Below are positions 20,976 to 35,660 of a stretch of 64,000 bases of DNA, in pieces. The translations under genes and the position numbers were made by a program. The notes under the pieces were generated by a model. That model did no database searches, was not told the DNA's origin, and was given only the letters and a program-made list of their open reading frames with translations. Origin of the DNA: Arthrobacter sp. Soil762 (GTDB lineage Bacteria > Actinomycetota > Actinomycetes > Actinomycetales > Micrococcaceae); NCBI RefSeq assembly GCF_001428335.1, contig NZ_LMSG01000017.1, forward strand, positions 124,140 through 188,139, read 5' to 3'. Position 1 is the first letter of the stretch, and each line of letters starts with the position of its first letter.

Positions 20976-21057
20976 GCCCGAGTGGCGGAATTGGCAGACG
21001 CGCCGCACTCAAAATGCGGTATCGAAAGGTGTGTGGGTTCGAGTCCCACCTCGGGCA
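20976..21057 (+). tRNA. tRNA-Leu (anticodon CAA)
   Basis: The acceptor stem GCCCGAG (20976-20982) pairs with CTCGGGC (21050-21056) with A as discriminator; the anticodon stem is CCGCA/TGCGG (21003-21007, 21015-21019) around loop CTCAAAA, giving anticodon CAA at 21010-21012. A long variable arm, as expected for tRNA-Leu, and the T-loop GGTTCGAGTCC are present. CCA is not encoded. A tyrosine integrase starts 88 bases downstream, so this gene is the probable integration target. Confidence 0.95.
21034..21057 (+). other. Probable attL: tRNA-Leu 3' end used as attachment site
   Basis: Tyrosine integrases of this type usually recombine at the T-arm and acceptor end of a tRNA gene, and the integrase at 21145 faces away from this end. 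The core is placed here by that rule only. I searched by eye for a second copy of GGTTCGAGTCCCACCTCGGG later in the window and found none, so attR is outside or lost. Confidence 0.5.
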
Positions 21058-21073
21058 CAGTGTTTCCCCAGTT

Positions 21074-21144: not shown

Positions 21145-22275
21145 ATGGCCAGCATTTGGGAACGAAAAAAATCGGATGGATCCACGTCCTATACGGTCCG
21201 CTGGCGGAACCCCGAGACGCGTAAGCAAGAGGGGATTACCCTCGCCACGTCGGCTGAAGCGCAGACGTTGAAGCGCCTCCTTGATGCCAACAACCAATCA
21301 TTTGAGATCGCACAGCATGCAATGGTTTCCAACCAGACCAAATCGCCCACCGTAGCGGCAGTGATCCAAGAACACATCGACCTTCTGGTCCGGCCCTCTG
21401 TTGGCACGGTGCACACGTACCAGACCATGCTGAAGCTCCACATCGCCGACGTCATCGGGCACATTCCTGTGGACAAGCTTGACTACCGGCACCTGACGTA
21501 CTGGATCAAGGCGATGCAGAACAAGGGCCGGTCCGCCAAAACCATCAAGAACAACCATGGCCTGATCTTCTCGGCGATGGAGACTGCCGTCCGGCTCGGT
21601 TACCGGAAAGACAATCCTTGCCGCGGAGTGCAGCTTCCGTCCGGCGAAAAAGCGGAGGATGAAGCCAGGTTCCTGACGCACGCCGAGTTCGGACTGATCC
21701 TCGAAGGCATGGGGGAGCGGTATAGGGCCTTCACAGAGTTCCTGGTCATGACGGGAACGCGATTCGGTGAAGCAACCGCTGTGACCGTCGCCGACGTCGA
21801 CCTTATGTCCAAACCGGCCACAATGCGGATCAACAAGGCCTGGAAACGCGGTACTGATTCCGAGTACTACATCGGTGCGACCAAGACCGGCGCCGGAAAA
21901 CGAACGGTGTCGTTGAATCCGCAGCTCGTGGAGGTTCTGATTCCGCTGGTGGCCAGCCGGCCTGGCTCCGATCTCTTGTTCACCACGCCCAAGGGCGAGA
22001 GGATCGTCCACAAGCTGTACTGGCATCACTACTGGGTTCCGGCAGTGGAGGCGGCCCAGGCGCGTGGCCTCAAGAAGTCTCCCCGGATCCACGACCTGCG
22101 TCATACGCATGCCTCCTGGCTGATTCAGGACGGCGTATCGCTGTTCACGGTCTCCCGGCGTTTGGGGCACGCGTCGACTCGGACGACAGAGCAGGTCTAC
22201 GGTCACCTGATGCCGCAGGCCCTCCAGGATGCGGCCGACGCCGTTGAGCGGTCCGCGGTGGTTTGGCGAGGTTAG
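21145..22275 (+). CDS. Tyrosine-type site-specific integrase
   Basis: This 376-residue protein inserts and excises the element at the adjacent tRNA-Leu. It has an N-terminal arm-binding domain (SIWERKKSDGSTSYTVRW), a SAM-like core-binding domain (about 70-155), and the catalytic domain with Arg in MTGTRFGEATA, HxxR in HDLRHTHASWL, LGH in RLGHASTRTT and the Tyr in EQVYGHL. A longer open frame begins at 20914 but would cross the tRNA gene; the ATG at 21145 fits the family. The gene is convergent with the excisionase-like gene. Confidence 0.93.
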   Translation: MASIWERKKSDGSTSYTVRWRNPETRKQEGITLATSAEAQTLKRLLDANNQSFEIAQHAMVSNQTKSPTVAAVIQEHIDLLVRPSVGTVHTYQTMLKLHIADVIGHIPVDKLDYRHLTYWIKAMQNKGRSAKTIKNNHGLIFSAMETAVRLGYRKDNPCRGVQLPSGEKAEDEARFLTHAEFGLILEGMGERYRAFTEFLVMTGTRFGEATAVTVADVDLMSKPATMRINKAWKRGTDSEYYIGATKTGAGKRTVSLNPQLVEVLIPLVASRPGSDLLFTTPKGERIVHKLYWHHYWVPAVEAAQARGLKKSPRIHDLRHTHASWLIQDGVSLFTVSRRLGHASTRTTEQVYGHLMPQALQDAADAVERSAVVWRG

Positions 22276-22294: not shown

Positions 22295-22540
22295 CTAGGA
22301 GTACTTCTGCCGCGCTTGGGCGCGGGTCCCGATCATGCGGACCGCGGGAACAGAAGGGCCGTGGGATCGAACTTCCCGCAGCTGCGCAATCTCCTTCAAG
22401 TGGCCTGAGGTGAAGATGATCTTCCCCTTGCCCCAGACGGCATGCGGGAACTCGCCCTTGGCGGCGCCTTCGCGGAGCCATGCCTCGGAGCATTTGAGCA
22501 CTGAAGCGGCCTCGGCTGGTTCGAAGAATTCGAGTTTCAT
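22295..22540 (-). CDS. Excisionase-like helix-turn-helix protein
   Basis: The 81-residue protein has an N-terminal MerR/excisionase-type helix-turn-helix (EPAEAASVLKCSEAWLREGA) with the short beta segment GKGKIIFTSGHL that such proteins use as a wing. Size and position next to the integrase suggest Xis, which sets the direction of recombination. It overlaps the upstream winged-helix gene by ATGA at 22537-22540, so the two are co-expressed. A plain DNA-binding regulator is the alternative. Confidence 0.65.
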   Translation of the reverse strand: MKLEFFEPAEAASVLKCSEAWLREGAAKGEFPHAVWGKGKIIFTSGHLKEIAQLREVRSHGPSVPAVRMIGTRAQARQKYS

Positions 22541-22806
22541 GTGTAGGTCATGGACCCGCCGAGATCAGACTGCATGACTGTGCGTCGGAAGCTGGCGGCG
22601 GCGGCTTGCACACGTTCGGGGCTTGCCTGGAAGCGGCCTGCAGAGTGAGTCACGAGCCGAGCATCGCAAAGGAGGTCCAGCTGCCGGCGGATGCCCGAAT
22701 AGGACTGCCCCAGCTCGTCGCCGATTTGGCCGCACGTTGACGGGCCGTTCCTGATCAGGAAACGGAGGATTCGGCTGCGCGTTCGGTTCATCAAGATGTT
22801 CGACAT
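22537..22806 (-). CDS. Small winged-helix (ArsR-like) regulator
   Basis: This 89-residue protein reads RTRSRILRFLIRNGPSTCGQ followed by IGDELGQSYSGIRRQLDLL and ARLVTHSAG, a complete winged helix-turn-helix of the ArsR/MarR type with recognition helix at about residues 33-47. It has no metal-binding Cys pair, so it is not a metal sensor. A 28-base palindrome lies 30 bases upstream of its ATG and is a likely operator for autoregulation. It is translationally coupled to the excisionase-like gene and so probably controls excision. Confidence 0.72.
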   Translation of the reverse strand: MSNILMNRTRSRILRFLIRNGPSTCGQIGDELGQSYSGIRRQLDLLCDARLVTHSAGRFQASPERVQAAAASFRRTVMQSDLGGSMTYT

Positions 22807-22836: not shown

Positions 22837-22864
22837 TGCTGCTGTAGACGGGTCTACAGCAGCA
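22837..22864. promoter_or_regulatory. 28-base near-perfect palindrome, putative operator
   Basis: TGCTGCTGTAGAC (22837-22849) and GTCTACAGCAGCA (22852-22864) are perfect 13-base inverted arms around GG. A two-base centre is too tight for an RNA loop, so a dimeric protein site is more likely. It lies between the divergent winged-helix gene (start 22806) and the EspR-like gene (start 23054). Confidence 0.7.
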
Positions 22865-23053
22865 GGATACTCCCGCTGCGGTCATGCCGGAAGAGGTGGG
22901 CCGGGGAAATGAAGACAGTCCAGGTTGCCGTTGGCTGATGTTGACGCGAACTCAGCAATTGATTGCCCAACTGGATGACTCGCGGAATACTGGGGCACAG
23001 GGACGGCGCTCGGCAGTAGGCCGCCCACGTAGAAGCAGGTCGAAAGGTGAGCG

Positions 23054-23557
23054 ATGTCGAGTGAGGAGACAGGCCGTGGCCATGCATTGTCGCCCCAGGC
23101 TCAACTCGCCCGTCGCCTAAACCTGCTGCTCGACGTCGTCGTTGCTGAGCGTGGCAAGCCGGTGACTTTCCGAGAGGTCCAAGCAGACCTTGCGTCCAAG
23201 GGAATCAAGCTCTCGCGCGCTCGGTGGTTTTACATGAAAGAGGGTACAGGCCGGCTGGTCAGCGACCCTGTGTTGCTGTCGGGGTTGTGCAGTATTTTCG
23301 GTGTCGACCCGGAGTACCTCGCCAGCGACGATGCTGCCTTGCCCGAGCGGATTGATTCTCAACTGGAATTCGTAAAGTCGCTCCGTGCGGCGCGGGTGAA
23401 GTCATTCGCGGCCCGGACCCTGGGCGATGTTTCGCCGGAAACGCTGCGGGTCATTTCCGAATTCCTCAACGAGGACATCAGCCGTCACCCCGGAGGGGAG
23501 CGGGCTGCGGCTAATCCTCCAGAAGATACTGAAGGTGAGCAGCCAGCAACTCCTTGA
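23054..23557 (+). CDS. EspR-like helix-turn-helix regulator
   Basis: The 167-residue protein has an N-terminal helix-turn-helix of the EspR/XRE type: RRLNLLLDVVVAERGKPVTF then VQADLASKGIKLSRARWFYM, ending in CSIFGVDPEYL. Mycobacterial EspR has the same order of helices and the same use of a C-terminal helical dimer domain, which here spans about residues 105-145. The last 20 residues are disordered. It is divergent from the winged-helix/xis pair and its 3' end overlaps the opposite regulator gene by 47 bases. A role in controlling transfer is inference. Confidence 0.65.
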   Translation: MSSEETGRGHALSPQAQLARRLNLLLDVVVAERGKPVTFREVQADLASKGIKLSRARWFYMKEGTGRLVSDPVLLSGLCSIFGVDPEYLASDDAALPERIDSQLEFVKSLRAARVKSFAARTLGDVSPETLRVISEFLNEDISRHPGGERAAANPPEDTEGEQPATP

Positions 23558-23834
23558 TCCGTGCGGCGTTGGCTGAATATCGCGGCGATCGGCCGTGGCG
23601 CCTGCCGGGCTCTACGTCGACCACAATGGCGCCGGATTCCTCGAGAGCCAGCAGGTGTTTAGCCACGCTCGGCTCGCCGGCGCTCACCGCTTCCACGATG
23701 TCTCCGCGGGTTGCCGGACCGTGGGCGGAAAGATAACGCAGAATCTCGTTTCGGGACCTGTTGCCGAAGGTCGCGACTGCGGCTTCGACGTCGGCGGACC
23801 AGGCGGCGTCGTGAGGTTGCGTTATGCGTGGCAT
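23511..23834 (-). CDS. Second winged-helix (ArsR-like) regulator
   Basis: This 107-residue protein contains FGNRSRNEILRYLSAHGPAT, then RGDIVEAVSAGEPSVAKHLL and the wing VVDVEPGRRHGRSPRYS, a full winged helix-turn-helix. It is a paralogue-like partner of the regulator at 22537-22806 but has a longer N terminus. Its start is separated by 34 bases from a perfect 15-base palindrome that overlaps a promoter reading toward the sigma-like gene, so it is placed to control both itself and that gene. Its 3' end is antisense to the end of the EspR-like gene. Confidence 0.7.
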   Translation of the reverse strand: MPRITQPHDAAWSADVEAAVATFGNRSRNEILRYLSAHGPATRGDIVEAVSAGEPSVAKHLLALEESGAIVVDVEPGRRHGRSPRYSANAARIKELLAAHLQYLLED

Positions 23835-23867: not shown

Positions 23868-23909
23868 AAGACTGACAGTCTTGACGATACTTTAAATATC
23901 TTCGACAAT
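23868..23909 (+). promoter_or_regulatory. Putative promoter with overlapping operator, upstream of the sigma-like gene
   Basis: TTGACG (23881-23886) and GACAAT (23904-23909) are separated by 17 bases and fit an actinobacterial -35/-10 pair. The perfect palindrome AAGACTG-A-CAGTCTT (23868-23882) overlaps the -35 box, so a bound repressor would block the promoter. It lies between the divergent winged-helix gene (start 23834) and the sigma-like gene (start 24024). Confidence 0.55.
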
Positions 23910-24023: not shown

Positions 24024-24929
24024 ATGCGAGTCGAAGCCAGGGCACAGCAAGCCCCGCAGAATCAGTCAGCCTCAACCACCATAGATATCTCCCTGCAAGG
24101 AGTGGCGCCCCCGGCGGAAATTGCAGTCCCGGTGGACCAAATCATGGTGGCCGTCGACAGCGTGCAGCGCTATGTGGTGTCGCATCTGTCGAGGATAGGT
24201 CGGGCGTGCGATGTGGACGACGTCATGCAGGACATCCGGGTCGCAGTCTGGGATGGTCTTACGCGCGGACACTACCGTCAGCTCCCAGGCGTTGCCTTCG
24301 GTGCCTGGGTTCAGGGGGTTTGTGCCAATGTGTGCGCCGCGCATATCCGACGGGAACTCAACCATCCGACGCTCCCGCTGTTCGGGGATCCAAGTGACGC
24401 TGGCGGCCCGGTGTCGTTTGACGTTCTGGGCACATTGGGGATCGACCGCGCGTGGGATCGGGGCACTGAGACAATCATCGACCAGGACTGGGCGAGAACC
24501 ATCATTGACCTGACCAGGGCCAGCGTCCCAGGGGGAGTCTGGGAACTGGCCGTGGACAGTCTCACTGGGCCGCGCCGATACGGTCCGCCGTCTCCGCAGG
24601 ACCGCCGCCGCTGGCACGCCGTGACCGTTGTGCGCCAAACGGCCCGAACTGTCCAAAGCGCACTGGACGTTGAACGGTCAGCCATCCGGAACATCGGGGA
24701 CGTGTGCCAGCACGCAGCAGCGTGCCTGCCAACGCCCGTGCTCCGCAGAACGGCCGAATCCATCGTTCGTCCAGGATTGCGAGGCCCGGACCGAACGAAA
24801 GCCTTGGCAGCTGTCGCCGCCGAGCTCGGTGTCACCGAACGCTATGTGGCCGTGCAGATCGGTTTCGCACGCCGGCTGTATCAGGCTGCGTGGAGGATTC
24901 TCCAATCGGGGGCGCGTGCAGCCCGCTGA
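24024..24929 (+). CDS. Sigma-70-like protein encoded by the element
   Basis: The 301-residue protein has a sigma region 2-like part (about residues 35-110): YVVSHLSRIGRACDVDDVMQ followed by DIRVAVWDGL and FGAWVQGVCANVCAAHIRRE. A C-terminal region 4-like helix-turn-helix (about 258-300, AVAAELGVTERYVAVQIGFA) is joined by an unusually long linker. ATG 24024 is chosen; the open frame extends upstream to 23913 across the promoter. It could direct RNA polymerase to transfer-gene promoters, but a sigma-like DNA-binding protein without sigma activity is possible. The conjugation genes follow on the same strand. Confidence 0.55.
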   Translation: MRVEARAQQAPQNQSASTTIDISLQGVAPPAEIAVPVDQIMVAVDSVQRYVVSHLSRIGRACDVDDVMQDIRVAVWDGLTRGHYRQLPGVAFGAWVQGVCANVCAAHIRRELNHPTLPLFGDPSDAGGPVSFDVLGTLGIDRAWDRGTETIIDQDWARTIIDLTRASVPGGVWELAVDSLTGPRRYGPPSPQDRRRWHAVTVVRQTARTVQSALDVERSAIRNIGDVCQHAAACLPTPVLRRTAESIVRPGLRGPDRTKALAAVAAELGVTERYVAVQIGFARRLYQAAWRILQSGARAAR

Positions 24930-24979
24930 GTCATGTCTTTGACCCTGGAATCTTGCCATGAGCGGGTGAGGAGGCTGGA

Positions 24980-25693
24980 ATGCTGCCATTGCGGAGAAAT
25001 ACCACTCGACCGAGCAGACTGCGCCGTTGGTGGTTCACGGCGATCACGGTCCTGTGTGTGGCCGGCGGGCTGCTCGTTCTCACGATGCCGCCGCGCGGAC
25101 CCGCAGCAGAGCCGGTTCCTCCGCCGACGGTGACGGCGCCCCAGGAGTCGGAACTTCCTTCGCCCAGCTCGACGGCAGAGACAGCGACGGCGGCTCCCGC
25201 CGTCGGGATGCCCGATGGTGCGCCGTCCACAACGGACTTCCGCAAGCTCGCTGTCGCGGCGGCGACGGCGATCTACACCTGGGACACCCGATCGGCGTCG
25301 TACTCCGACGTCTACTCGAGGCTCCGAGGTTGGTGGCACGTGTTGCCCGACGGGTCCAATCCCCTGTCGGTGCTTGTTCAAGAATTCGAAGCGACCGGCA
25401 TCAACGCCGGAAGCTATGCCACCTTGGCGGGGCAGCAGGCCCAGCGCTCGGCAACGGTCCAGTCCCTGATGTGCGACGACGAACTGGCCGAGGTGCGGGA
25501 GCACCCGGCGCCGTGGTTTGGTCTGCATGTTTGCACGGTCTCGCTTTGGGTTGTGGATGAGTCGACGTCTGGGCGTAACAGGTACGCGGCTACTGCCAGC
25601 GTGATGGTGAACTGTCCGCCCGCTTCGACGGCACCGCCGGATCGATGTGTGATGGTCGGTTTCTACGCTTCGCCCAGCAGGATCGTGTCCTGA
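24980..25693 (+). CDS. Membrane-anchored conjugation protein, VirB8/TcpC-like
   Basis: The 237-residue protein has a basic N terminus (RRNTTRPSRLRRWW), one membrane helix at about residues 19-38 (FTAITVLCVAGGLLVLTM), a Pro/Ser/Thr-rich linker to about residue 85 and a C-terminal extracytoplasmic domain (about 88-235) with four Cys. The topology matches VirB8/TcpC scaffold proteins of Gram-positive conjugation systems. GAGGAGG (24968-24974) precedes the ATG. It overlaps the cell-wall hydrolase gene by one base (TGATG). Family assignment is by architecture only. Confidence 0.5.
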   Translation: MLPLRRNTTRPSRLRRWWFTAITVLCVAGGLLVLTMPPRGPAAEPVPPPTVTAPQESELPSPSSTAETATAAPAVGMPDGAPSTTDFRKLAVAAATAIYTWDTRSASYSDVYSRLRGWWHVLPDGSNPLSVLVQEFEATGINAGSYATLAGQQAQRSATVQSLMCDDELAEVREHPAPWFGLHVCTVSLWVVDESTSGRNRYAATASVMVNCPPASTAPPDRCVMVGFYASPSRIVS

Positions 25694-26805
25694 TGCAGAC
25701 TGCAGTGCTGCTGGTCGGGCTTGCTAAGCGTCATGTCCTGCTACGGGCTGCAGTGGCTGTCGCCACTGTTCTGATACTGGCGGGCGTCTTTGCGTTCTGC
25801 GGTGCCGTCGCAGTACTCGGTGCCAATGGGGGAGCTGCGTCTGCGTGTTCGCCGACGCGTCCGAGCGGTATGTCTGGGGGCAATAGATCCGAAGCTCTGA
25901 GCGTTCGCGCCGGTCGCCAGGCGCCGCTGGATCTGACGGCGCGGCAAATTGCCGTTGCCTCGGATTACATCTCAGTTGGCAAGCAGTTGGGTGTGCCGCG
26001 CGATGGTCAGATCATTGCGATCATGATGTCGCTACAGGAATCCGGTCTTAGAGTCCTGGCCAATGCGAACGTACCCGAATCTCTCAACTATCCGCACGAT
26101 GGCGTCGGCAGCGACCATGATTCGCTGGGCAGTGCCCAGCAGCGTCCGGCCGCAGGTTGGGGGAGCATTGCCCAGCTGATGGATTCCATGTACAACGTCC
26201 AAGCCTTCTACGGTGGCCCGGCTGGTCCTAACCGCGGCAGTCCGCCGGGGCTCTTGGACATTCGAGGCTGGCAATCCATGAGCAAGGGCCAGGCGGCCCA
26301 GGCCGTCCAGGTGTCGGCGTTCCCCGAGCTGTACGCGCACTGGGAACCTCAAGCAACTGCGATCGTCGACACGCTCGACGACGGGACCCCGCCTGCCCTG
26401 TGCGGCGAAACGTCGAGTACCGCGCCGATGATCCAGGAATTGGCCAACCTGAGCCAGATTCGTCAAGACATCCTGCGGTTCACCCAAGAGGGCGTTGGTG
26501 GCGCGTACGTATGGGGTGGTACGGCTTTCAAGGCGTGGGATTGTTCCGGCTATGTCCAGTGGATCTACCGGCAGGCTGGAATCAATCTGCCGCGCGTGGA
26601 GCAGTGGCGTGTAGGCGTGCGAACCGACAATCCGCTGCCCGGAGATCTGGTGGTGCAGAACGCGCAAGGGCCGAACAGCTGGGGCCACGTTGGCATCTAT
26701 GCCGGCGATGGCAAGATGTGGAGCGCCCTCAACCCTTCTGTAGGGACACTACTGCATCCAATAGCCTGGAACTCGGATACAGCGTATTTCGATCTGCTGG
26801 CCTGA
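25693..26805 (+). CDS. NlpC/P60 cell-wall hydrolase of the conjugation module
   Basis: The 370-residue protein has a membrane helix at about 15-40, a middle domain (about 75-230) with QIIAIMMSLQESGLRV resembling a lytic transglycosylase-like fold, and a C-terminal NlpC/P60 domain (about 255-370). Its catalytic Cys lies in AWDCSGYVQWIYRQAG and His in WGHVGIYAGDG. Such two-domain hydrolases open peptidoglycan for the transfer channel (VirB1/TcpG role). The ATG at 25693 shares bases with the upstream stop; the frame could extend to 25645. Confidence 0.85.
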   Translation: MQTAVLLVGLAKRHVLLRAAVAVATVLILAGVFAFCGAVAVLGANGGAASACSPTRPSGMSGGNRSEALSVRAGRQAPLDLTARQIAVASDYISVGKQLGVPRDGQIIAIMMSLQESGLRVLANANVPESLNYPHDGVGSDHDSLGSAQQRPAAGWGSIAQLMDSMYNVQAFYGGPAGPNRGSPPGLLDIRGWQSMSKGQAAQAVQVSAFPELYAHWEPQATAIVDTLDDGTPPALCGETSSTAPMIQELANLSQIRQDILRFTQEGVGGAYVWGGTAFKAWDCSGYVQWIYRQAGINLPRVEQWRVGVRTDNPLPGDLVVQNAQGPNSWGHVGIYAGDGKMWSALNPSVGTLLHPIAWNSDTAYFDLLA

Positions 26806-26883
26806 GATTCACTGCTGACGGTTTCGCAATTGACGCTAGGTAATGGCAGCCTGCCCGGCCAAGTAATCCTGACCACGCTTGGA

Positions 26884-26913
26884 ATGGAGGCGCCGGCTGC
26901 CCAACGCCTCCAT
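26884..26913. terminator. Hairpin between convergent NlpC/P60 and lipoprotein genes
   Basis: ATGGAGGCG (26884-26892) pairs perfectly with CGCCTCCAT (26905-26913) around a 12-base loop. It lies between two genes that end toward each other, but no T run follows on the plus strand, so intrinsic termination is uncertain. Confidence 0.5.
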
Positions 26914-26925
26914 GCTTCGGCGGGC

Positions 26926-27300
26926 TTAGACAGGTCGGCAGATGTGTCGTTTGGCCAGACCCACGATCACCGCTGCCTTGGCATCATTGCGGGCATGATT
27001 GGCCAAAACAAGCGTGCTCTTGTGCAGTTCATCAGCAGTCGCAGCCGTCATGCCGAGCTTCTTAGGATCAACGCAGATATCTTCCCCAATCCTGGCTATC
27101 TCCTGATCCGTGTTGTTGTTGATTGTTGGCACGCGATCCCGGACCGCCTCCACGAAGGCCTTGGTGCCGTCGTCTGCTGCTGACGTGGTCACCTGGCTGC
27201 TGGTCGAGGGGCCGCCGGTATCACTCCCGCCACAGGCAGAGATAGACACGGTGATGGCGATAACGGCTAATAGGCCGCAAAGTGTAGAGCGCTTAAACAT
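26926..27300 (-). CDS. Small lipoprotein, DUF732-like
   Basis: The 124-residue protein has a signal peptide ending in the lipobox ISAC (Cys23), then a Ser/Thr-rich spacer and a domain with FVEAVRDRVPTINNNTDQE, IGEDICVD and a C-terminal ICRPV. The two Cys flanking the domain and the IxxGxxxC pattern are typical of actinobacterial DUF732 exported proteins. It would be modified by Lgt and anchored outside the membrane. It reads against the conjugation genes. Exclusion or adhesion roles are only guesses. Confidence 0.6.
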   Translation of the reverse strand: MFKRSTLCGLLAVIAITVSISACGGSDTGGPSTSSQVTTSAADDGTKAFVEAVRDRVPTINNNTDQEIARIGEDICVDPKKLGMTAATADELHKSTLVLANHARNDAKAAVIVGLAKRHICRPV

Positions 27301-27798
27301 GGGAACCTTTTACTTTGGTCGTGCTTTGACGGCAGCGAGCGTAACACTCATTTATCTGTCGCGACCGGAGTGCGCGCCGATCCATTCCACAAGCTGACCA
27401 ATGGCACTTCGGATTGAAATTGCAGGCTCCATCATGCGGCAGGTGGGCAAAAGTCTCGCCTCAGCCGGGGCAGACGAATTCGTGATACCACCAACCGAAA
27501 ATTGGCCACCATTCACCATAGAAGTACTCAATAGGGATGTTTGGTGGCGATGGCCACTTGGTCGGGCAGGCATCCGAAGCGTGAGATACCGACGATGCCG
27601 ACCCGCCACGCTCGCGAGGCAGCTCGCCGGCTCAAGGGCTCCGGGACGAACATTCCGGCGCCGGTCATGGCAGCAGGCGAGTTGATCGGCCCTTACCGCG
27701 GATAGCCAGCTGGCGGCAGTAGCGTCGCGGATGGCCTTGGGCTCGTTCGGGCGCGCAGCCGATGGTGAAATGCCGCGATGCAGAACGTTCGCGTGGAG
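27301..27798. other. Gap of about 500 bases without a convincing gene
   Basis: The stretch lies between two minus-strand lipoprotein genes. Short open frames on both strands (for example plus 27401-27685, beginning ALRIEIAGSIMRQVG) show no family features and have no good ribosome site. The second half is more GC-rich with frames that look like decayed coding DNA. The first 60 bases presumably hold the promoter of the lipoprotein gene at 26926-27300. Confidence 0.4.
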
Positions 27799-28551
27799 CT
27801 ATTTCACGTATCCGTTCAATCTGAGCTCACGCTCTGCATCGGCCGCACGTGCAGGGCAAAAATAGGCCACGGTCAGGCGGACCACAGCCGGACCACGGCC
27901 ACTGGACTCAGAACCTGGGGATCCGAACTCCTTAACTTCGGTCGAAAAATTTGTGTATCCGCCGCTCAGGGGCTTGTCGCAAAGAAATTCCTTCATGAAC
28001 TGGCCGAAACTGGTCACATTGTCCGGCACGATCCCGGCCGAGGCTAGGTCGGCGCCATAGCTTCCAGTTGTTTGAATGGGGGATGGAAATGGAGTGGAGT
28101 CAGGCCTGTATGGGATTGAGACCCCAAGATCGGCGCATCGGTTGATCAGCTCCGTGCCGGCGGCTTTGAAATCCGCAGCCTTCAGGTCATAGCTGCCTGC
28201 AGCGTTGAGGAGGCCGTCGACCGGTTCCGCGAGCGCATTTACAAGTGTTTTGACGTCGGGCTCGGCGCGCTTGGCGATGTCACTGAGCTCTGCCGAAAGC
28301 TTGCTCGCCGTCGACCTCGCGGTGGAATCCACGTTCGTGACATCCTTGACGAACGCAATGGAGTCAAGGAAGGTGCTATGGCTTTTGCTACCCATGAGTT
28401 GATCACACGTGGTCTTGGCCGACACAGTGAACTCATTGGCGCTCGCTGACGGACTGTTCGTCGAGCCTGCATCTGGCTCGCTGCGAGGCCCACTGCATCC
28501 AGCCACAAGAAGGGCCGACATCGAGATGACAGCCACCAGGATCTTCTTCAA
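27799..28551 (-). CDS. Putative lipoprotein of unknown function
   Basis: From TTG 28551 the 250-residue product starts KKILVAVISMSALLVAGC, a clear signal peptide with lipobox LVAGC. A Ser/Asn spacer is followed by a helical domain (about 50-135) with TTCDQLMG and a C-terminal segment with LCDKPLSG and VAYFCPARAADA. The open frame extends to 28755, but that region lacks signal-peptide character. DUF3558-like exported proteins have a similar layout, but the match is weak. It may be a surface factor of the element. Confidence 0.55.
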   Translation of the reverse strand: MKKILVAVISMSALLVAGCSGPRSEPDAGSTNSPSASANEFTVSAKTTCDQLMGSKSHSTFLDSIAFVKDVTNVDSTARSTASKLSAELSDIAKRAEPDVKTLVNALAEPVDGLLNAAGSYDLKAADFKAAGTELINRCADLGVSIPYRPDSTPFPSPIQTTGSYGADLASAGIVPDNVTSFGQFMKEFLCDKPLSGGYTNFSTEVKEFGSPGSESSGRGPAVVRLTVAYFCPARAADAERELRLNGYVK

Positions 28552-28893
28552 TTGTCCCCATTTCGGATTTATGTTGATCAAACGGAATCGTGTCCCGAGA
28601 TTTGGCGGATACTGCACGAAATCAACAGTCTCATCCCAAGTCACAGCCTCCCGACGAATGCCACACGGAGAGGCAAGAACAAAACCCGTTAGTGAGTGAA
28701 AATCCACGAACCGGCAACATCTCCGCAGCTCAGAGCCCGGCCTTCCCGAAACCACGACCCGCGAACCGAGTCAGGCGGAGTTGGTCGGCTGGTCCGGTTT
28801 GCGCTTAGCACTCCGGATTCGCGATGGACATGGCAGGGTTTGAGCTGCCAAACCCAAGGCGTGCGGACAGGCACTGTTCCAGTCAGATAAGCG

Positions 28894-29265
28894 TCAGCGT
28901 TTGGTCAGCGACTTGTAGAAACGCCAGTCGCCGTTCCCGTTGCTGTCGTACTGAAAGCATCTACGCATGGCGTCGATCGCGTTTAGGACACCAAGCAAGG
29001 CCGCTGGAGAGAAAGACGAAGCTCCTGCGGTGCCGTAGTGGCTCACCCAGTTGGCTACGATCGAGGGAGCATGACGGGTTCGAAGGTCTGCAATCTGCTG
29101 CGTGGTGAGGATGACCTGGCTAGCGGCCTCGTGAATTTTCACCGCGTACACAATGGCGTCAAGACAACTGTGAGTCTTGACAGTGGCTGGTCTGGGACTG
29201 GCTGGCAGGATGGGTGCAGGCCGTTCCGCCCCGTGGATATGACTCACCGCACAACTGACCCGCAC
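28894..29265 (-). CDS. Hypothetical protein, possibly cut by IS110
   Basis: No family is recognised in this 123-residue product (GTG start at 29265). Residues 36-123 look like a folded, mostly helical domain (LDAIVYAVKIHEAASQVIL, then ALLGVLNAIDAMRRCF), while the first 30 residues look random. The start lies within about 20 bases of the presumed left end of the IS110 element, so the true N terminus may have been lost on insertion. It follows the lipoprotein gene on the same strand. Confidence 0.4.
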   Translation of the reverse strand: MRVSCAVSHIHGAERPAPILPASPRPATVKTHSCLDAIVYAVKIHEAASQVILTTQQIADLRTRHAPSIVANWVSHYGTAGASSFSPAALLGVLNAIDAMRRCFQYDSNGNGDWRFYKSLTKR

Positions 29266-29279
29266 GGTGTCTTTAAGTA

Positions 29280-29465
29280 GATTTGTCTCTCCATTGGGGT
29301 GGTCCGACCGGCACCTGTCCGGCCCACCTCGGTAGCTTGATCAGAAGATTGTCCACCCCTTTTTGCGGGGCGTGACCCATCACAGTGCTGTTCCTTGGTG
29401 ACCTCAACCCGGACTGGTACCGGCCAGCGACGGCCATGACCATGTCCGTGAACAGGAAGGTACCA
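29280..29465 (+). ncRNA. Candidate bridge RNA region of the IS110 element
   Basis: IS110-group elements encode a bridge RNA between the left end and the transposase gene that pairs with target and donor DNA. This space has hairpin potential, for example GGTGGTCCGACCGG (29299-29312) with CCGGCCCACC (29319-29328), and CACCCC...GGGGCGTG further on. No loop was matched to a target, so this is by position and family knowledge only. Confidence 0.35.
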
Positions 29466-30539
29466 ATGACCGCCATGTCTATCGTCGCGCATGCCCATCC
29501 ATTTGTCGTGGGCGTCGACACGCACGCCCGCAACCACGTCTACTCGATCCTCGCCGCAAATACCGGCGCCTTGCTCGAATCCCGGGATTTCCCCGCAACC
29601 GGAGCCGGGATCAACCGGGCGATCGACTGGGTCGCCCGCCGCACCGGCGGCGCTGCCGACACCCTCTGGGTGATCGAAGGTGCCGCGTCCTACGGAGCGA
29701 TCCTGGCCGGCACCGTAGCCAGCCACGGCTTCCCTGTGGCCGAGGCACCGCGGATGGATGCCAAGAAGCGCCGTGGAGTGGGCAAGACCGATGCCCTGGA
29801 CGCCCACCAGATCGCCATCTCGACCCTGGCCCTGCCGGTGGACAAGCTGCGCCGCCCCCGCCTGCATGACGGGATCCGCCAAGGCGTGAGGATTCTGGTT
29901 ACGGCACGGGGATCCATGACCAAGGACCGCACCCGGTCGATCAACGCTCTCAACGCCCTGGTGCGCGGCAATGACCTGGGCATCGACGCCCGCAAGAAGC
30001 TCACCAGCACCCAGATCACTGAGGTCTCAAAGTGGCGGTCCCGGGAAGAAGAGCTCTCGCTGTCCATCGCCCGCACCGAGGCTGTGCGACTGGCTAGACA
30101 CGTCCTGCTTCTCGATGAGCAGCTCACGGCCAACGAGAACCAGCTCGATGAGTTGGTCAAGGTCAGTGAAGCCGCACCCTTGCTCGAGGAGACAGGGTTC
30201 GCAGCGATCAGCGCCGCGAAGTGCCTCGCGGCCTGGTCACACGAAGGAAGAGTTCGTAACGAGGCGGCCTTCGCATCCCTGGCCGGGGTGAATCCCATAC
30301 CCGCATCATCCGGGAACACGGTCAGACACCGACTGAACCGGGGCGGAGACAGATCTCTGAACAGTGCCCTGCACATGGTCGCGGTCACCAAAATGACCCA
30401 TGACGCCAAAACCCACGAGTATGCCGAAAAACGACGCGCCCAAGGGCGAACCAACAAGGAAATACGCCGCTGCATCAAGCGCTACCTCGCACGCCATATC
30501 TACCGCACGCTCAATGCCTCAGCAACGCACACGCCTTGA
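29466..30539 (+). CDS. IS110-family transposase (DEDD)
   Basis: The 357-residue protein has the N-terminal RuvC-like DEDD domain (VVGVDTHARNHVYS, LWVIEGAASYGA, KTDALDAHQIA), a coiled-coil middle (about 200-250) and the C-terminal Tnp20 domain with FASLAGVNPIPASSGNTVR and the conserved Ser. ATG 29466 is preceded by AGGAAGG at 29454-29460. The frame is intact, so the element may still move. A piece of the same gene's 3' end is repeated at 31621-31693. Confidence 0.92.
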   Translation: MTAMSIVAHAHPFVVGVDTHARNHVYSILAANTGALLESRDFPATGAGINRAIDWVARRTGGAADTLWVIEGAASYGAILAGTVASHGFPVAEAPRMDAKKRRGVGKTDALDAHQIAISTLALPVDKLRRPRLHDGIRQGVRILVTARGSMTKDRTRSINALNALVRGNDLGIDARKKLTSTQITEVSKWRSREEELSLSIARTEAVRLARHVLLLDEQLTANENQLDELVKVSEAAPLLEETGFAAISAAKCLAAWSHEGRVRNEAAFASLAGVNPIPASSGNTVRHRLNRGGDRSLNSALHMVAVTKMTHDAKTHEYAEKRRAQGRTNKEIRRCIKRYLARHIYRTLNASATHTP

Positions 30540-30681
30540 CAGACCTAGAAGCTTTACCAGGATCCTCGCCCACCTAGCCCTTCCGTTGACACGCATAAGG
30601 ACTGGGCTGCCGGTGAGGCACATGCTGTGCGCTAGCTGAGAGACTATCCGGAGAACATATGAACTACAGAGGGGGCATTAC

Positions 30682-31458
30682 GTGTCAGAAACGTCAGTTG
30701 ATCACAGGCGGCAGCGCTTCGGATGGCTAATCGAGCGCAAGGACGGACGCGATTTTCCCTTCTATGACGGTCAACCCGTAGAGGTAGCTACGTGGAAGTG
30801 GCTGGTCATCATCGCATCTTGCGTGGCAGGTTTCCTCGCATTGACGTTGATCCCCGAAGCTAACAATGTCGGCTCGCTCCTGACACGGTTCTTGTTCGCA
30901 GCAATCCCTTTCTCGGTCTTCATCGCTCTCACTGGAGGCTTCTGGAAGTCGATCTTCCGTAAACTCACCGGCCGGGACTTCCTGGACATGGTGATCTTCT
31001 GGCTCTTGAACCTCATAGTCAGCGCGGCAGTCGGTGCTATCGTTTTCGCAGTTTTCGGCGCAAACGCGAACACCGCCACTGACTCCGTCCTCGACGGCGG
31101 TCCAGCGGAAGTCATCGCCTTCTACGTCGGGACCGGGGTCCAGCTCTTCGGGGAGGAAATATTCACGATCCTGCCCTTCCTGGCCGTCATGTATCTGCTC
31201 TATACCAAAGCCCGGCTGACTAGGACAGCGTCGATTCTGCTGGCCTGGTTCATCACCGCTATTTGGTTCGGCGCCGCGCACCTGCCAACGTACGACTGGA
31301 ACTTTGCGCAAGCCCTGCTCATCATCGGTGCCGCACGCCTGGTACTGACGCTGGCATTCATCCGAACCAAAAACATTCTCGTCTCCACCGGCGCCCATAT
31401 TCTCAACGATTGGTCATCGTTCACACTCGTACTAATCGCTGCAAGCCTGACCTCATAA
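30682..31458 (+). CDS. CPBP-family intramembrane metalloprotease-like protein
   Basis: This 258-residue protein has about seven membrane helices and the CPBP/Abi motifs: EE at about 157-158 (FGEEIFTILPF), a His at about 199 in WFGAAHLP, and GAHILND at about 237. The usual EExxxR motif lacks its Arg, so activity is uncertain. Start is GTG 30682 with GAGGGGGC at 30669-30676. CPBP proteins often act in bacteriocin self-immunity or CaaX processing. A small gene with a strong ribosome site follows 41 bases after the stop. The pair lies between an IS110 copy and a fragment of the same element. Confidence 0.75.
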   Translation: MSETSVDHRRQRFGWLIERKDGRDFPFYDGQPVEVATWKWLVIIASCVAGFLALTLIPEANNVGSLLTRFLFAAIPFSVFIALTGGFWKSIFRKLTGRDFLDMVIFWLLNLIVSAAVGAIVFAVFGANANTATDSVLDGGPAEVIAFYVGTGVQLFGEEIFTILPFLAVMYLLYTKARLTRTASILLAWFITAIWFGAAHLPTYDWNFAQALLIIGAARLVLTLAFIRTKNILVSTGAHILNDWSSFTLVLIAASLTS

Positions 31459-31499
31459 GGGCCTCCGCCGGCCGACTCTGGGTTCCCAGAGGAGCAGCG

Positions 31500-31724
31500 G
31501 TGAACGCCCAAGGGAACAACGGCAGGACATACCCAAACTTCAATCCCCTGGGCAAGAATCTGACTAGCCTCGAACTGGACACCACTGTCATCGCGCCGGG
31601 CAGTCTCCGCCCGCGCACAGGCCACCTCGCACGCCATATCTACCGCACGTTCAATGCCTCAGGAACAGCAACACACGCCTTGACAGACATAGAAGAGTCT
31701 GTGAGAGAAAGAACCGACGCGTAG
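31500..31724 (+). pseudogene. Chimeric short gene: unknown N-terminal half fused to the IS110 transposase tail
   Basis: GTG 31500 is preceded at ideal distance by AGAGGAG (31488-31494). The first 40 residues (NAQGNNGRTYPNFNPLGKNL, then TSLELDTTVIAPG) match nothing I recognise. From about 31621 the frame continues in phase with the last residues of the IS110 transposase (LARHIYRTFNASG). The 74-residue product is therefore a fusion of a truncated host gene with an element remnant. The strong ribosome site and position behind the CPBP gene suggest the N-terminal part was once a partner peptide or protein. Confidence 0.5.
31621..31693 (+). repeat. Partial copy of the IS110 3' end
   Basis: CACCTCGCACGCCATATCTA and the following 50 bases match 30481-30549, the end of the IS110 transposase gene and its right flank, with a few substitutions and a small insertion. 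Similarity stops near the shared TAGAAG. The remnant and the intact element bracket the CPBP gene. Confidence 0.85.
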
Positions 31725-32469
31725 ATGTTGCTACCGGCGCCGTAGATGCAATCGTGGTCTGGTGTCCCGATGGCTTACTATCTTTCGTGGGATCCGCCTG
31801 GCCAGCGGAAGCCTGAGCCTCCAGCTTGTTCAAAGCATCTTTTACCATTCTATTGAATAATGGCCTTATATTCTTCCGGTTCTCCTCCGTAGCAGCGGAC
31901 TCAAGGAGTACTAGATTCGCCTTAAGTATTGCCGCCATAGAGGCGTCAATCGATTCGAGGTGCTTCAGATATTGCACGAGATCAGACGACAGTCCAGCCC
32001 CACTGAAAACAACTTCTGACACGATTTTCCTCGTCCCCCATAAATGCTGCCTAGCGCGGCCATTTCCCACGACCTGACCGACGATACTACGGCCTGCTGG
32101 ATGGTGGACGTCTCGGCTCGCCTCGTACTTCGCATAAGGTCCCCGAGGACCAGATGCGCAGTTTCTCTGGATGAAACCAACGGCGAGAGTGGCCGGGCCG
32201 CAGCGTCCAAGGCAGCGTGCTCCCGGGAGCATGATCCTTCCTAAATCTGCTATCGCCTCGGAGGAGCCTCTCGGTACCGAGCCGATTCGACACGGACTCG
32301 TGCCGTCGGCATACCCCCGCAGCAAACTCCATTGCATGGCTTGGAGACCGAATTCGGCGACGGCTATTCGCTTGACAGCCGTCGCGCATCTACCGCAACT
32401 CACAGCCACGTTGCATCCGGTATATAGTGCCAACGCGCTGACGTCGGGGGCGGACTGAACACTAGTCAT
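31651..32469 (-). CDS. Hypothetical protein with tail read from IS110 remnant
   Basis: The 272-residue frame begins TSVQSAPDVSALALYTGC. Its centre (about residues 130-235) looks like a real helical domain: VVFSGAGLSSDLVQYLKHLE and ATEENRKNIRPLFNRMVKDA. The N-terminal part is rich in Cys and less convincing. The last 15 or so residues are antisense to the IS110 remnant, so the natural C terminus has probably been replaced. No family is recognised. It is divergent from the conjugation genes starting at 32549. Confidence 0.4.
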   Translation of the reverse strand: MTSVQSAPDVSALALYTGCNVAVSCGRCATAVKRIAVAEFGLQAMQWSLLRGYADGTSPCRIGSVPRGSSEAIADLGRIMLPGARCLGRCGPATLAVGFIQRNCASGPRGPYAKYEASRDVHHPAGRSIVGQVVGNGRARQHLWGTRKIVSEVVFSGAGLSSDLVQYLKHLESIDASMAAILKANLVLLESAATEENRKNIRPLFNRMVKDALNKLEAQASAGQADPTKDSKPSGHQTTIASTAPVATSTRRFFLSQTLLCLSRRVLLFLRH

Positions 32470-32548
32470 GTAGCCCCGCCCCTCCACCTCCATGAAGTAG
32501 TGAGCCCAAACCCCTCATTCCCTTGGACAACGACGGACGGAGCGCCCG

Positions 32549-32836
32549 ATGTTTTTGGCAGCGGTAGATCCTGGAATCACCCCGAATGCAGACTTTCCAT
32601 TCCTTGAATCGCTGAAGCAGATCGGCGGTGGCATCCTGGTTGGTGCCTTCGTGGTGATCGCGATCGTGGCGATCATTGGGGCTGCGATGCTGCTCGCCGG
32701 CAAGCTGAGCCAATCTTCGCGGTTGGCTTCCGGTGGCGGCATGATCTTGCTCTGGACCGGGCCTGTGGCCGCCATCCTGGGCGGCATCAACGGCTACATC
32801 CTGTGGTCTCAGACGGCTTTTCCCTTGGGGTTCTAG
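32549..32836 (+). CDS. Small two-helix membrane protein of the conjugation system (DUF6112-like)
   Basis: The 95-residue protein has two membrane helices (about 28-52, GGILVGAFVVIAIVAIIGAA, and about 63-85) and short polar ends. It comes immediately before the TrbL-like gene (6 bases apart), the position of the small DUF6112/pilin-like protein in actinobacterial conjugative elements. It may form part of the channel, as VirB2/VirB3 do in other systems. GGACGGAGC upstream is a plausible ribosome site. Confidence 0.6.
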   Translation: MFLAAVDPGITPNADFPFLESLKQIGGGILVGAFVVIAIVAIIGAAMLLAGKLSQSSRLASGGGMILLWTGPVAAILGGINGYILWSQTAFPLGF

Positions 32837-32842
32837 GCAGAC

Positions 32843-34210
32843 ATGCCGGTTCAGTGTGATCTGAATGGATGGTGGCCACCCGGGTGCGGTCTGGTCTCCC
32901 AAGCGAACGACGGCGTCCAAGGTTCCATTACGTCGCTCTTTGCCAACATTCTCCAGAGCATCGCCTCCTGGATCTGGTCCTTCATCACGGGCGCGTTCAG
33001 CGTCTCGGACGTCGATGATTCGCAGTGGACCGCCGTCGAGGGGCTGACGACTTGGTGGGTCATTGTCATGATGACCCCGCTCGTTGTCGTGATGATCCTC
33101 CAACTGCTGTCTGGCTTGATCAGTCAACAGCCCCGCCGGCTGGTGCGGGCGCTGGTTGGCGGTGCCGCGGCCGTTCCCATGGTGGCCGGCGCGGTCTACC
33201 TTGTCCGGCAGCTCACGAAGGTGGGTGATTCGGCCTCCACCGCGCTCCTTGGCTCCATGGGGACCGATCCCTACGTCCTGTTCATGCGGCTCTTTGGCTT
33301 CGAGCGGGCTCCGGAGGGCTCGGGCAGGGAATGGAACGTCGTCTCCTTGTCGCCGGGGACAAGCGGTGGCGGGGCCGGGGGAGTCATCGTGACCGCGATG
33401 GCGGTCATTGTCGTCTGGATTCTGGCGTTCATCCTGATGTGTTCGATGATTTTCCGGTCTTTCGCGCTTGTCGTGTTGGCCGCCGTCGCCCCGGTTGCGC
33501 TCATGCTGATGCCGTGGGAGAAGACGAAGACCTGGGCCCGTCGATGGTGCGAGATCGTCGTGGCTCTGCTCCTCGCCAAGCCGCTGGCTGCGACCGTGTT
33601 GGCCGTGGCCATCAAGCTGTTTGCCGAGTCGAAGTCATTCGCGGGGCTGGCCGCAGGAGCCGTCGGCATGGCGCTGGCCTGCGCTGCCCCGCTTATGGCC
33701 TTGCGCCTCGTGAGCTTTGCCGGAGGGGAACTCGCAGCTGCAGCTCAAACCGCAGGCGGCGGACACGTCCTTTCGCGGGGCTCTGGCTTTGCGGCTCGGC
33801 AGATCAGTCGGCAAACCGGCGGCAGATTCACGCTCGCCGGCCTGGCAGGGCGCCCGTCGATCACCCGCCCGATCCAGTCGAGCCGCCACCAATTTCCCAC
33901 TCGTGCACTTCCGCCGCGCATGCCGTTGCCAGGGAACGTCACACATACGACGCCGACACAGGCTTCGGGCCCGAGCTCACGGGTGTTGATGCTCGACGTC
34001 GGGACCCCGGCTCCCGACCCACCGTCACCTCAGGCGACCGCTGGCGGCAGCCCGCGTCCAGGTTCAGACTCACCACGGTCGGCGGCCCAGCCGACCTCGC
34101 CCCGTTCGCCGTCGCCGACCAGGGACGCCGCCGCACCGGTAGCGCCACCGCCATCCATCCGCCCGCAGCCAGTCGTCCAGCCACCCAGCGATGGTGATTC
34201 CCGTGTCTGA
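32843..34210 (+). CDS. TrbL/VirB6-like polytopic conjugation protein
   Basis: The 455-residue protein has a short N-terminal part, then about six to seven membrane helices between residues 63 and 300 (TWWVIVMMTPLVVVMILQLL, VTAMAVIVVWILAFILMCSM, AVAPVALMLMPWEK). A long Pro/Ser/Arg-rich cytoplasmic tail occupies about 330-455. This matches the TrbL/VirB6 inner-membrane channel subunit of type IV secretion. It overlaps the next gene by 8-20 bases depending on the start used there. Confidence 0.75.
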   Translation: MPVQCDLNGWWPPGCGLVSQANDGVQGSITSLFANILQSIASWIWSFITGAFSVSDVDDSQWTAVEGLTTWWVIVMMTPLVVVMILQLLSGLISQQPRRLVRALVGGAAAVPMVAGAVYLVRQLTKVGDSASTALLGSMGTDPYVLFMRLFGFERAPEGSGREWNVVSLSPGTSGGGAGGVIVTAMAVIVVWILAFILMCSMIFRSFALVVLAAVAPVALMLMPWEKTKTWARRWCEIVVALLLAKPLAATVLAVAIKLFAESKSFAGLAAGAVGMALACAAPLMALRLVSFAGGELAAAAQTAGGGHVLSRGSGFAARQISRQTGGRFTLAGLAGRPSITRPIQSSRHQFPTRALPPRMPLPGNVTHTTPTQASGPSSRVLMLDVGTPAPDPPSPQATAGGSPRPGSDSPRSAAQPTSPRSPSPTRDAAAPVAPPPSIRPQPVVQPPSDGDSRV

Positions 34211-35660
34211 AAATTCCCGTACCCTCGAGGCAGTCAAGTTTCCCCGGTACGAGCGCCGCGGCCTGTTCATGGGCCTGAAGTGGTACCAACTGCTGCTCCT
34301 GGCCAGTGGCGTCTTGGTGGCCAGTACGGCATCGGCAGTTCGCGGTCCCGCAGGCCTGTTCGCCTCCGGACCGGTGTGGCTGGCGCTGATACTCCTCGGG
34401 TTGCTGCAGTATTCGCGGATTCCGTACCCGGTGTGGGCCAGCCACGCAGTGGTGTTCTTCGTCAGGATGGCCGTCAAGCAGACCCGCTTCCTTGCCAGGC
34501 CGGAGCAGGCTGCCTTGGCTGGCCGTCTGGCACTCCCCGGCGGGCTGGGGAACTTGGAACTGCGCCGGACAAGCCGCGGCGAGTCGTTCCTCGTGGACAC
34601 CCGTGGCCGGGAGGCGATTGCAGTGCTGCGCTGCAGCACTCGGTCATTCGCCCTTCTGGACACGGACGACAAGGCATGGGCGGTGCAGGCCTGGTCGCGG
34701 GTGCAGGCCGGTCTGGCCCAGCGCAGCAGCGTGGCGAGGATTGCCGTGCAGGATTACACGGTCCCGTACCCGTCGTCGGCGCTGCGGGATTTCTACGAAC
34801 ATGCGATCCTGCAGCGAACGGAATCGTGGGGTCAGCGGGCGTACGAGGACCTGATCGCCGCAGCCGGATCCACCATGAGCCACGACGTCCTCCTCGCCCT
34901 TGTGGTGGACACCGCCAAGGCGCGGCGTCGGATCAGGGAGGCGGGAGTGGGACTGATTGGCGTCGAACGGGTCCTCCGTCTCGAGGTTGAGGCCATGACC
35001 ACGGCACTGGGAACGCACAGCGTGAGGGTAGAGGAGTGGCTCCCGGAGGAGGGGATCCTCGACGTCGTCCGCGGCGCCTTCGACCCGGCCGCAATACCAG
35101 CACCGGCGCGGCAGCCTGCGCTGCCCGCTGACGCGCTGAGCCTGCCAGCCGGGCCAATGGCCGTCGAAGAACACTGGAGCTACGTCCGGACGGACTCGGG
35201 CTTTCACCAGACGTTCTGGGTCGCCGAATGGCCCCGGCAGAAAGTGTTCCCCGGGTTCCTGCACCCACTGATCTACGTCGGGGGTTTCCGCCACACCGTG
35301 ACCGAAGTGATTCGCGCCGTCCCTACAACGGAGGCATTGCGGGATATTCGTTCCGCGCAGGAAGCCCACGAGACGCGGCGGAGGATCAACACACGATTCG
35401 ACAGGCCACTCACGCGCGAGCAAAAGGCCGAAGAGGACGAAGTGGCCCAGCGCGAGGAGGAGATCGTCGCGGGACACGGTGACGTACGGCCCGCCGCCTA
35501 CGTGACCATCACGGCGGCCACCCTCGAGGACCTGGCCAGGCACCGGCAGGAACTGGAATCAGCGGCGGCGGGAGCCTTCGTTGAACTACGCCTTCTGGCC
35601 GGGCAGCAGTGGGCGGCCTTTGTCGCCGGCGCTCTGCCGTTAGGGAGGGGACTGCGATGA
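34191..35660 (+). CDS. SCO6880-family conjugation protein (PrgI-like plus VirB4 N-domain)
   Basis: The 489-residue protein starts with ENSRTLEAVKFPRYERRGLF and two membrane helices (about 30-75), the PrgI-like part, followed by a soluble domain to residue 489. SCO6880 proteins are the N-terminal partner of the split VirB4 ATPase in actinobacterial elements. Starts at ATG 34191 or GTG 34203 are both possible; neither has a strong ribosome site, and translation is probably coupled to the TrbL-like gene. It overlaps the ATPase gene by ATGA at 35657-35660. Confidence 0.75.
   Translation: MVIPVSENSRTLEAVKFPRYERRGLFMGLKWYQLLLLASGVLVASTASAVRGPAGLFASGPVWLALILLGLLQYSRIPYPVWASHAVVFFVRMAVKQTRFLARPEQAALAGRLALPGGLGNLELRRTSRGESFLVDTRGREAIAVLRCSTRSFALLDTDDKAWAVQAWSRVQAGLAQRSSVARIAVQDYTVPYPSSALRDFYEHAILQRTESWGQRAYEDLIAAAGSTMSHDVLLALVVDTAKARRRIREAGVGLIGVERVLRLEVEAMTTALGTHSVRVEEWLPEEGILDVVRGAFDPAAIPAPARQPALPADALSLPAGPMAVEEHWSYVRTDSGFHQTFWVAEWPRQKVFPGFLHPLIYVGGFRHTVTEVIRAVPTTEALRDIRSAQEAHETRRRINTRFDRPLTREQKAEEDEVAQREEEIVAGHGDVRPAAYVTITAATLEDLARHRQELESAAAGAFVELRLLAGQQWAAFVAGALPLGRGLR

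Follow-up and report, generated by a model that had tools for sequence, protein, structure and literature searches.

What does a sigma-factor-like gene do directly in front of the transfer genes of a mobile element? In the stretch of Arthrobacter DNA analysed here (64,000 nucleotides, hereafter the window), an ORF at 24024-24929 on the forward strand encodes a sigma-like protein of 301 residues. A preliminary description had placed this gene before the transfer genes, which is where it lies (the ORF ends at 24929 and transfer operon 1 starts at 24980), and had proposed an element-encoded sigma factor that switches on conjugation. The proposal is supported by sigma2- and sigma4-like predicted folds and by a shared motif which the protein would recognise. 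The best reading, which we consider probable, is that the ICE encodes a sigma factor of its own and with it activates excision and conjugation jointly. Its role would be wider than first suggested, with the motif also preceding the excisionase, ardC-ssb and relaxase genes.

Judged by its gene content the element is an ICE, possessing a tRNA-Leu attachment site with an adjoining integrase, an excisionase, a MobF relaxase (on the same contig, outside the 64-kb window), VirD4, VirB6 and an SCO6880 family protein. The tRNA-Leu (CAA) gene (20976-21058, +; ARAGORN) provides the left attachment site at its 3′ end (core 21038-21057). This 20-base core recurs on the same contig (C17) at C17:274196 and C17:293750, and with one mismatch at C17:276387; four copies on one contig suggest tandem islands over ~129-149 kb. 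The ORF adjoining attL (21145-22275, +; start codon chosen) is named integrase by its position and by its counterpart in a related element, annotated as a site-specific integrase. A putative excisionase gene, xis, follows on the reverse strand (22295-22540; HTH_17, E 1.2e-4, under the Pfam cut-off) and is conserved with its upstream motif. It is overlapped by the gene of a winged-helix regulator (HTH_20/ArsR-like, 22537-22806, −; Pfam HTH_20 3.5e-8). Next come an EspR-like DNA-binding protein (23054-23557, +; phmmer EspR 1.4e-5), present in 55/55 loci examined, and an ArsR/SdpR-like repressor candidate (23511-23834, −; HTH_5 1.8e-5; HTH_metalloreg 2.8e-8, under cut-off). At 22842-22859, in the gap between the HTH and EspR-like genes, lies an inverted repeat, CTGTAGAC-CC-GTCTACAG; it is found in most close relatives and is probably the operator of one of these two genes. 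A second EspR-like gene, 41-46% identical to the first, accompanies it on its contig in five of seven sigma-bearing genomes (C17:259396-259800; G236:C1:3604921; G123:C7:286732; G227:C5:2053771; G137:C1:1784312).

Downstream of the sigma-like gene, transfer operon 1 (24980-26805, +) encodes a conserved protein of unknown family (24980-25693) and an NlpC/P60 hydrolase (25645-26805). Transfer operon 2 (32549-38940, +) comprises five genes: a VirB2-like gene at 32549, labelled by position and a weak TrbC hint; TrbL/VirB6 at 32843 and the SCO6880 family gene at 34191, both with family-model matches; a gene at 35609 which is without a Pfam match and which we take to encode a VirB4-like ATPase; and the VirD4/TraG coupling protein at 37126. 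Between NlpC/P60 and virB2 is a cargo hotspot (26806-32460), occupied here by an IS110 transposase and other genes. As far as the related loci reach, they keep the same order: EspR-like, ArsR-like (reverse), sigma, operon 1, variable cargo, then virB2, virB6, SCO6880 and the 35609 gene. One locus (L011) has an insertion of ~5.7 kb that parts the sigma gene from operon 1. The NlpC-virB2 gap ranges from ~120 bp (L070-L075) to >11 kb (L060, L061), and in most elements operon 2 therefore requires a promoter of its own.

How widespread is the sigma-like gene? Relatives occur at 33 loci in Arthrobacter, Pseudarthrobacter and Paenarthrobacter, and 27 of these were aligned with the protein of the window. 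Their identity to it is 56-77%, with an F-x-A-W-V-Q-G stretch that is invariant save for x; more distant relatives range down to 39-46%. The ATG start at 24024 is backed by L010 and L012, where a stop codon lies in frame two codons before the start. Of the 33 loci, 30 have an open gene, and it is cut or broken in L030, L031 and L033; in L031 and L033, where it is broken, the adjoining transfer genes are still there. At E 1e-8, 29 of 295 sampled Micrococcaceae genomes have a match. An order-level sample of 396 genomes gave four, all of the window's own genus, and a phylum sample (396 genomes) gave the genome itself and five others in which only the region-2 end matched, over a short stretch. 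Plasmids supplied one member, named ‘sigma factor’ in RefSeq, and no relative was present in the viral contigs and phages searched. The gene is a core gene of this ICE family, found only in Arthrobacter-type bacteria among the genomes sampled.

The protein consists of region 2 (residues 45-111), which in sigma70 factors binds the core enzyme and reads the −10, a helical middle (146-214) and a part (217-295) resembling region 4, the −35 reader of the family. The sigma region 2 recognised in the preliminary description is confirmed by Pfam Sigma70_r2 (PF04542), which matches residues 45-111 with E 1.5e-5, just above threshold (25.1 bits vs a cut-off of 24); NCBIfam ShbA and other sigma models match the same stretch with scores under their cut-offs. 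A full-length model built from 28 sequences (mean pLDDT 58.8) contains the sigma2 domain: residues ~30-116 match many sigma2 folds (Z 5-6.8), among them CnrH (4cxf; Z 6.6, rmsd 2.4 over 72), and region 2 is 29% identical to ShbA (9isn) over 77 residues.

The region-4-like helix-turn-helix claimed for the C terminus is a weaker case, in which the best structural matches are to sigma region 4, at weak Z, and neither Pfam nor NCBIfam reports a region 4. In a second model, of residues 144-301 (mean pLDDT 73.6), the best match of residues 217-295 is to residues 121-190 of the E. coli sigmaE chain with rmsd 3.6 over 70 and Z 6.9, below the safe level of the structure-comparison tool, by whose calibration Z 5-7 is weak. 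After it come AlgU, CnrH, sigmaH and BldN, interspersed with a few unrelated helical proteins whose Z is ~5. Profiles were compared with 11 ECF-type sigmas picked from the 22 PF08281 matches in the same genome. Residues 217-300 match their region 4 over the helix-turn-helix (hhalign, p = 0.0034) vs p 0.42 for their region 2, and a longer C-terminal piece matches region 4 with p 0.033. WhiG (6pfj), of the group 3 (sigma28/WhiG) factors that have a region 3 between regions 2 and 4, aligns over residues 30-292 of the full-length model with an rmsd of 14.8, and to the 144-301 model with rmsd 2.3 over 61 at a weak Z of 6.3. A PDB sequence search with the family profile found no match, and Foldseek returned nothing at E 0.001 for either model.

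The separation of the two domains, previously put at about 140 residues, is ~150 when counted between residue 111, where region 2 ends, and the helix-turn-helix (~262). It is longer than in ECF sigmas, as had been remarked: ~105 residues intervene before the region-4-like part begins at 217, in place of the short region 2-region 4 linker of the ECF subgroup, which has no region 3. The middle (146-214) carries a strongly conserved DRRRWxAVTVVRQTA and aligns structurally to the −35-binding domain of SigL (3hug; Z 6.3, rmsd 4.2 over 69). A second sigma4 at this position, hinted at by that structure, finds no support in the sequence (p 0.36 against ECF region 4). No partner anti-sigma gene was noticed. 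The family is best described as a divergent sigma70 relative and, judged by domain spacing, not a standard ECF sigma factor.

If this is a sigma factor, what would it read? A bipartite signal, approximately GTCATGY-N18/19-CATGAA, precedes transfer operon 1 (24930), transfer operon 2 (32465) and xis (22578, −). The operon 1 site (24930-24961, +) reads GTCATGT-N20-CATGA and lies past the sigma stop codon, ahead of the operon, the operon 2 site (32465-32495, +) reads GTCATGT-N19-CATGA, and the xis site (22545-22579, −) reads AGTCATGCAG-N15-TCCATGACCT (PWM 26.1). A weaker site (22880-22915, +; PWM 21.3) is located ~140 nt ahead of the EspR-like gene, with similar matches in G187 and G236 and none in G123. 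A search for a motif shared by 24980, 32549 and 25693 had been suggested; it is present upstream of the first two, and 25693, before which no locus shows it (0/54), is probably transcribed together with 24980. In the 64-kb window the strict pattern GTCATGTN{17,20}CATGA has two matches, at the two operons, and in 100 shuffles none. Sixty sites from the window and its close relatives went into the PWM (22 xis, 20 virB2, 18 operon 1; the window's own included). The PWM scores above 20 at four places in the window (32464, 22579 on the reverse strand, 24929 and 22880), the next score being 13.0, and the top score in ten 64-kb Markov controls is 17.6. Across the whole genome the strict pattern gives six matches vs one for a reversed control: two at the operons, three beside att copies and one on contig C1.

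Directly before virB2 a conserved block with sharp limits consists of GTCATGTCG, ~16-17 variable bases and CCATGAA, and the flanking upstream DNA diverges. The motif is upstream of virB2 in 25/41 loci by a strict and 33/41 by a loose pattern, and upstream of xis in 20/26 (TCATG[TC]-N18-20-CATG[AG]) and 22/26, respectively. For operon 1 the count was 13/55 strict and 21/55 loose in a scan that ended 160 nt past the sigma stop and so missed the sites of L011 and L070-L075; counted from the start of the operon with a slightly different pattern, the motif is present in 27/54 loci and without a match in the other 27. By eye, the operon 1 site is not recognisable in the L018-L024 and L057/L062/L065-L067/L069 groups. 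No motif, strict or loose, precedes sigma (55 loci), arsR (55), nlpC (54), virB6 (41), SCO6880 (38) or the 35609 gene (36), nor the EspR-like gene (0/55) in the 130 nt scanned, which exclude the ~140-nt site. The HTH gene at 22806, with the motif in 4/41 loci (strict), is not a clean negative control. Shuffled control means were at most 0.05 (strict) and 0.3 (loose); the regions counted come from related loci and are not independent.

The spacer between TCATGT and CATGAA is of variable sequence and nearly fixed length (18-20 nt, mostly 19, once 17), which argues for a −35 and a −10 box. The boxes differ between clades, and the two operons change in step: CATGGA (usually GCATGGA) is paired with TCATRC or TCATAT in L070-L075, and CACGTCG/ATGTCG with CCATGAAC in the L035/L058-L068 group. 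In L011 the motif stayed with operon 1 despite the insertion after the sigma gene. Both observations argue that the sigma-like protein reads the motif.

A further argument for that recognition comes from the relaxase and ardC promoters, which were absent from the training set of the PWM and have a site wherever the genes are in view. At C17:203993 (+) a match lies ~54 nt ahead of an ardC-like gene, after which comes ssb, and another at C17:210640 (−) precedes a zinc-ribbon gene and the MobF relaxase gene; ArdC, Ssb and zinc-ribbon were named by eye, ArdC also from an annotated counterpart. At a threshold of 15 the ardC site is found in 7/7 elements (the window's own, G187, G236, G123, G239, G231 and the plasmid) and the relaxase-operon site in 6/6 (own, G187, G236, G239, G231 and the plasmid); G137, partly in view with neither gene, is in neither count, and G123, whose stretch does not reach the relaxase, is counted for ardC only. 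In all six relaxase operons the start codon (GTG in four, ATG in two) opens a conserved Cys-x-x-Cys protein and lies 4 nt past the scored decamer, in which the box is GATGAA in 4/6. It would thus fall where transcription should begin, the spacing expected of a leaderless mRNA. At xis of the window, 6 nt separate CATGAC from the ATG. At these two places the right box has the position required of a −10. At PWM scores of at least 16 there are two matches in 257 kb of comparison DNA from the same genome (L119-L131) vs 14 in the 120 kb of C17:186000-305999. Sites are also seen ~190-370 nt upstream of DUF4192-type genes (annotated in L132, named by eye in C17) at C17:257620 (−) and L132:30876-30910 (−), with a similar stretch in L151 near 8694; these genes are possibly a further member of the regulon.

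The sigma gene itself appears to be under different control. As proposed earlier, it stands behind a promoter with an overlapping operator (23868-23909, +): TTGACG-17-GACAAT at 23881-23909, the −35 of which is overlapped by the palindrome AAGACTGACAGTCTT at 23868-23882. This 15-bp palindrome (AAGACTG-A-CAGTCTT) adjoins the divergent ArsR-like gene. Since the sigmaA promoter scan returned three promoter-like sites vs 2.7 from shuffles, the score proves nothing alone. The close relatives listed retain this promoter together with an imperfect AAGA...TCTT palindrome; in distant ones they are not recognisable. Autoregulation through the bipartite motif was rejected, with 0/55 loci having it upstream of sigma.

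In the resting state, then, the ArsR-like protein probably represses the sigma gene through the palindrome over its sigmaA-type promoter. Once repression is lifted, the sigma protein would join the host core RNA polymerase, and the holoenzyme would read GTCATGY as −35 and CATGAA as −10, ~19 bp apart. xis, operons 1 and 2 (cell-wall and channel functions), the relaxase operon and ardC-ssb would be switched on together, and a single self-encoded specificity factor would divert host RNA polymerase to the transfer programme. The sigma identity follows from region 2, detected by Pfam and by fold, and from the sigma4-like C terminus. Counting against certainty are the operon 1 misses, the divergent region 4, copies of the motif in sigma-less genomes, and a sigma70-like match (CTCACA-18-TATAGT, 32399-32428) just 5′ of the operon 2 site, in local DNA that is unconserved between elements.

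GTCATGYN{18,20}CATGAA has 35 matches vs 0 reversed controls in seven sigma-bearing genomes, and 59 vs 13 in 17 genomes of the genus that have no sigma homologue at E 0.1 (noise-level hits, 0.157 and 8.4). The spacer is 19 in 44 of the first 51 matches listed, and some matches are probably chance occurrences in coding sequence because a near-identical string recurs in several genomes. At six of the ten sigma-less loci displayed the sites adjoin, and point toward, a tRNA-Leu(CAA) gene (L138, L144) or a copy of its 3′ end (L137, L145, L147; only 8 bases in L134); L141, L142, L146 and L149 have no tRNA beside the sites. On the window's own contig, the att copies at 274196 and 293750 likewise have sites next to them, and G009 has kept virB2 and its site in the absence of the sigma gene. 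Near the tRNA-Leu(CAA) gene or copies of its 3′ end, and directed toward them, sites occur singly, in pairs (often ~93-118 bp apart) or in arrays (L137, L138, L144, L145, L147, L134, L117, L118). We read the att-side sites as remnants or as companion islands that share the attachment site; those in sigma-less genomes may also be satellites that borrow the sigma factor, or a sign of another reader. By analogy with SGI1 and AcaCD, the sigma-less tRNA-Leu(CAA) islands could be satellites woken or carried along by the sigma factor of a helper ICE, a tentative idea that we rate as possible and somewhat doubtful. If true, the sigma factor would be the hub of a community of mobile elements in which satellites parasitise the ICE via the promoter specificity of RNA polymerase.

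Could the motif be read by a different protein, the EspR-like one or an unknown host factor, acting as activator or repressor, with the sigma-like protein doing something else or having lost its function? Conservation of the EspR-like and ArsR-like genes equals that of the sigma gene, which they track, so co-occurrence fails to single out sigma; the motif occurs in sigma-less genomes; and TCATG...CATGA is also an imperfect inverted repeat to which a dimeric regulator could bind. EspR-like orthologues of at least 70% identity, however, are confined to exactly the seven sigma-bearing of 24 genomes, three sigma-less ones having only paralogues of 36-38%, so that the EspR-like protein leaves the extra sites unaccounted for. 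Of a host factor one would expect targets in the core genome, yet G244 and G260 have no site and four other sigma-less genomes have one. The two halves of the motif diverge separately between clades, the sigmaA-type scan is blank downstream of the operon 1 and xis sites, and the right box is too near the start codons for a downstream sigmaA promoter. We therefore regard a different reader as unlikely. The dyad-like halves, and the several predicted DNA-binding regulators of the element, would equally suit a repressor operator common to the mobility genes, with the sigma-like protein an unrelated regulator or a relic. Such an operator needs an overlapping promoter at each site, but none of the sigmaA type is found at operon 1 or xis and one possible match precedes operon 2. 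The spacer also varies by 1-2 nt, which is unusual in dimer sites, and a relic would hardly be open in 30/33 loci; this explanation is very improbable. Recognition of the motif by the ICE-encoded sigma factor remains the preferred reading.

How does such a switch compare with known systems? The protein resembles the ECF (group 4) sigmas, such as sigmaE, CnrH and ShbA, in its region 2, by Pfam and fold, and in the bipartite promoter-like signal. It differs in the ~105 residues before the region-4-like domain vs a short linker, in its divergent region 4 and in that no anti-sigma partner was noticed for the window's gene. ECF promoter boxes are of the GGAAC/CGTC type, from which those of the ICE motif differ. 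ICE control is usually described in terms of repressors, antirepressors and activators, and Orf7 of Tn916 is a small sigma-like protein from the regulatory region of an ICE. An ICE-encoded sigma factor controlling excision and transfer was undescribed among the matches listed from open-licence literature (titles and starts of abstracts), and in the excerpted text of a review of Gram-positive conjugation a sigma factor is mentioned only as host sigmaH (PMC6540685). Should the preferred reading be true, the control step of this ICE would be a changed specificity of RNA polymerase, with one signal for the genes of excision, DNA processing, the channel and antirestriction. Promoters and start points are predicted precisely enough to be tested directly, and the motif offers a means to find genes of the transfer programme and perhaps satellites.

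Transfer genes of Tn916 are reported to be expressed after excision, from the orf7 promoter (PMC11658703), and not, as proposed here, from a promoter motif dedicated to each operon. Another parallel is AcaCD, the master activator of IncA/C plasmids, which activates transfer genes and an xis gene (PMC4605294). As with AcaCD and SGI1, there is one element-encoded regulator, and islands lacking it bear matching sites; AcaCD is, however, an FlhDC-family activator and not a sigma factor (PMC4605294), and borrowing in the present case is suggested by sequence only. Conjugative transposons of Clostridioides difficile carry predicted sigma genes, recognised by their −35-binding HTH, and the authors asked whether such products bind promoters inside the element (PMC3158075). 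Those genes are accessory, with no regulon proposed in the excerpted text (PMC3158075), whereas the sigma-like gene described here is a core gene with a candidate regulon defined by its motif, and this family makes the question of sigma-like proteins on element promoters testable.
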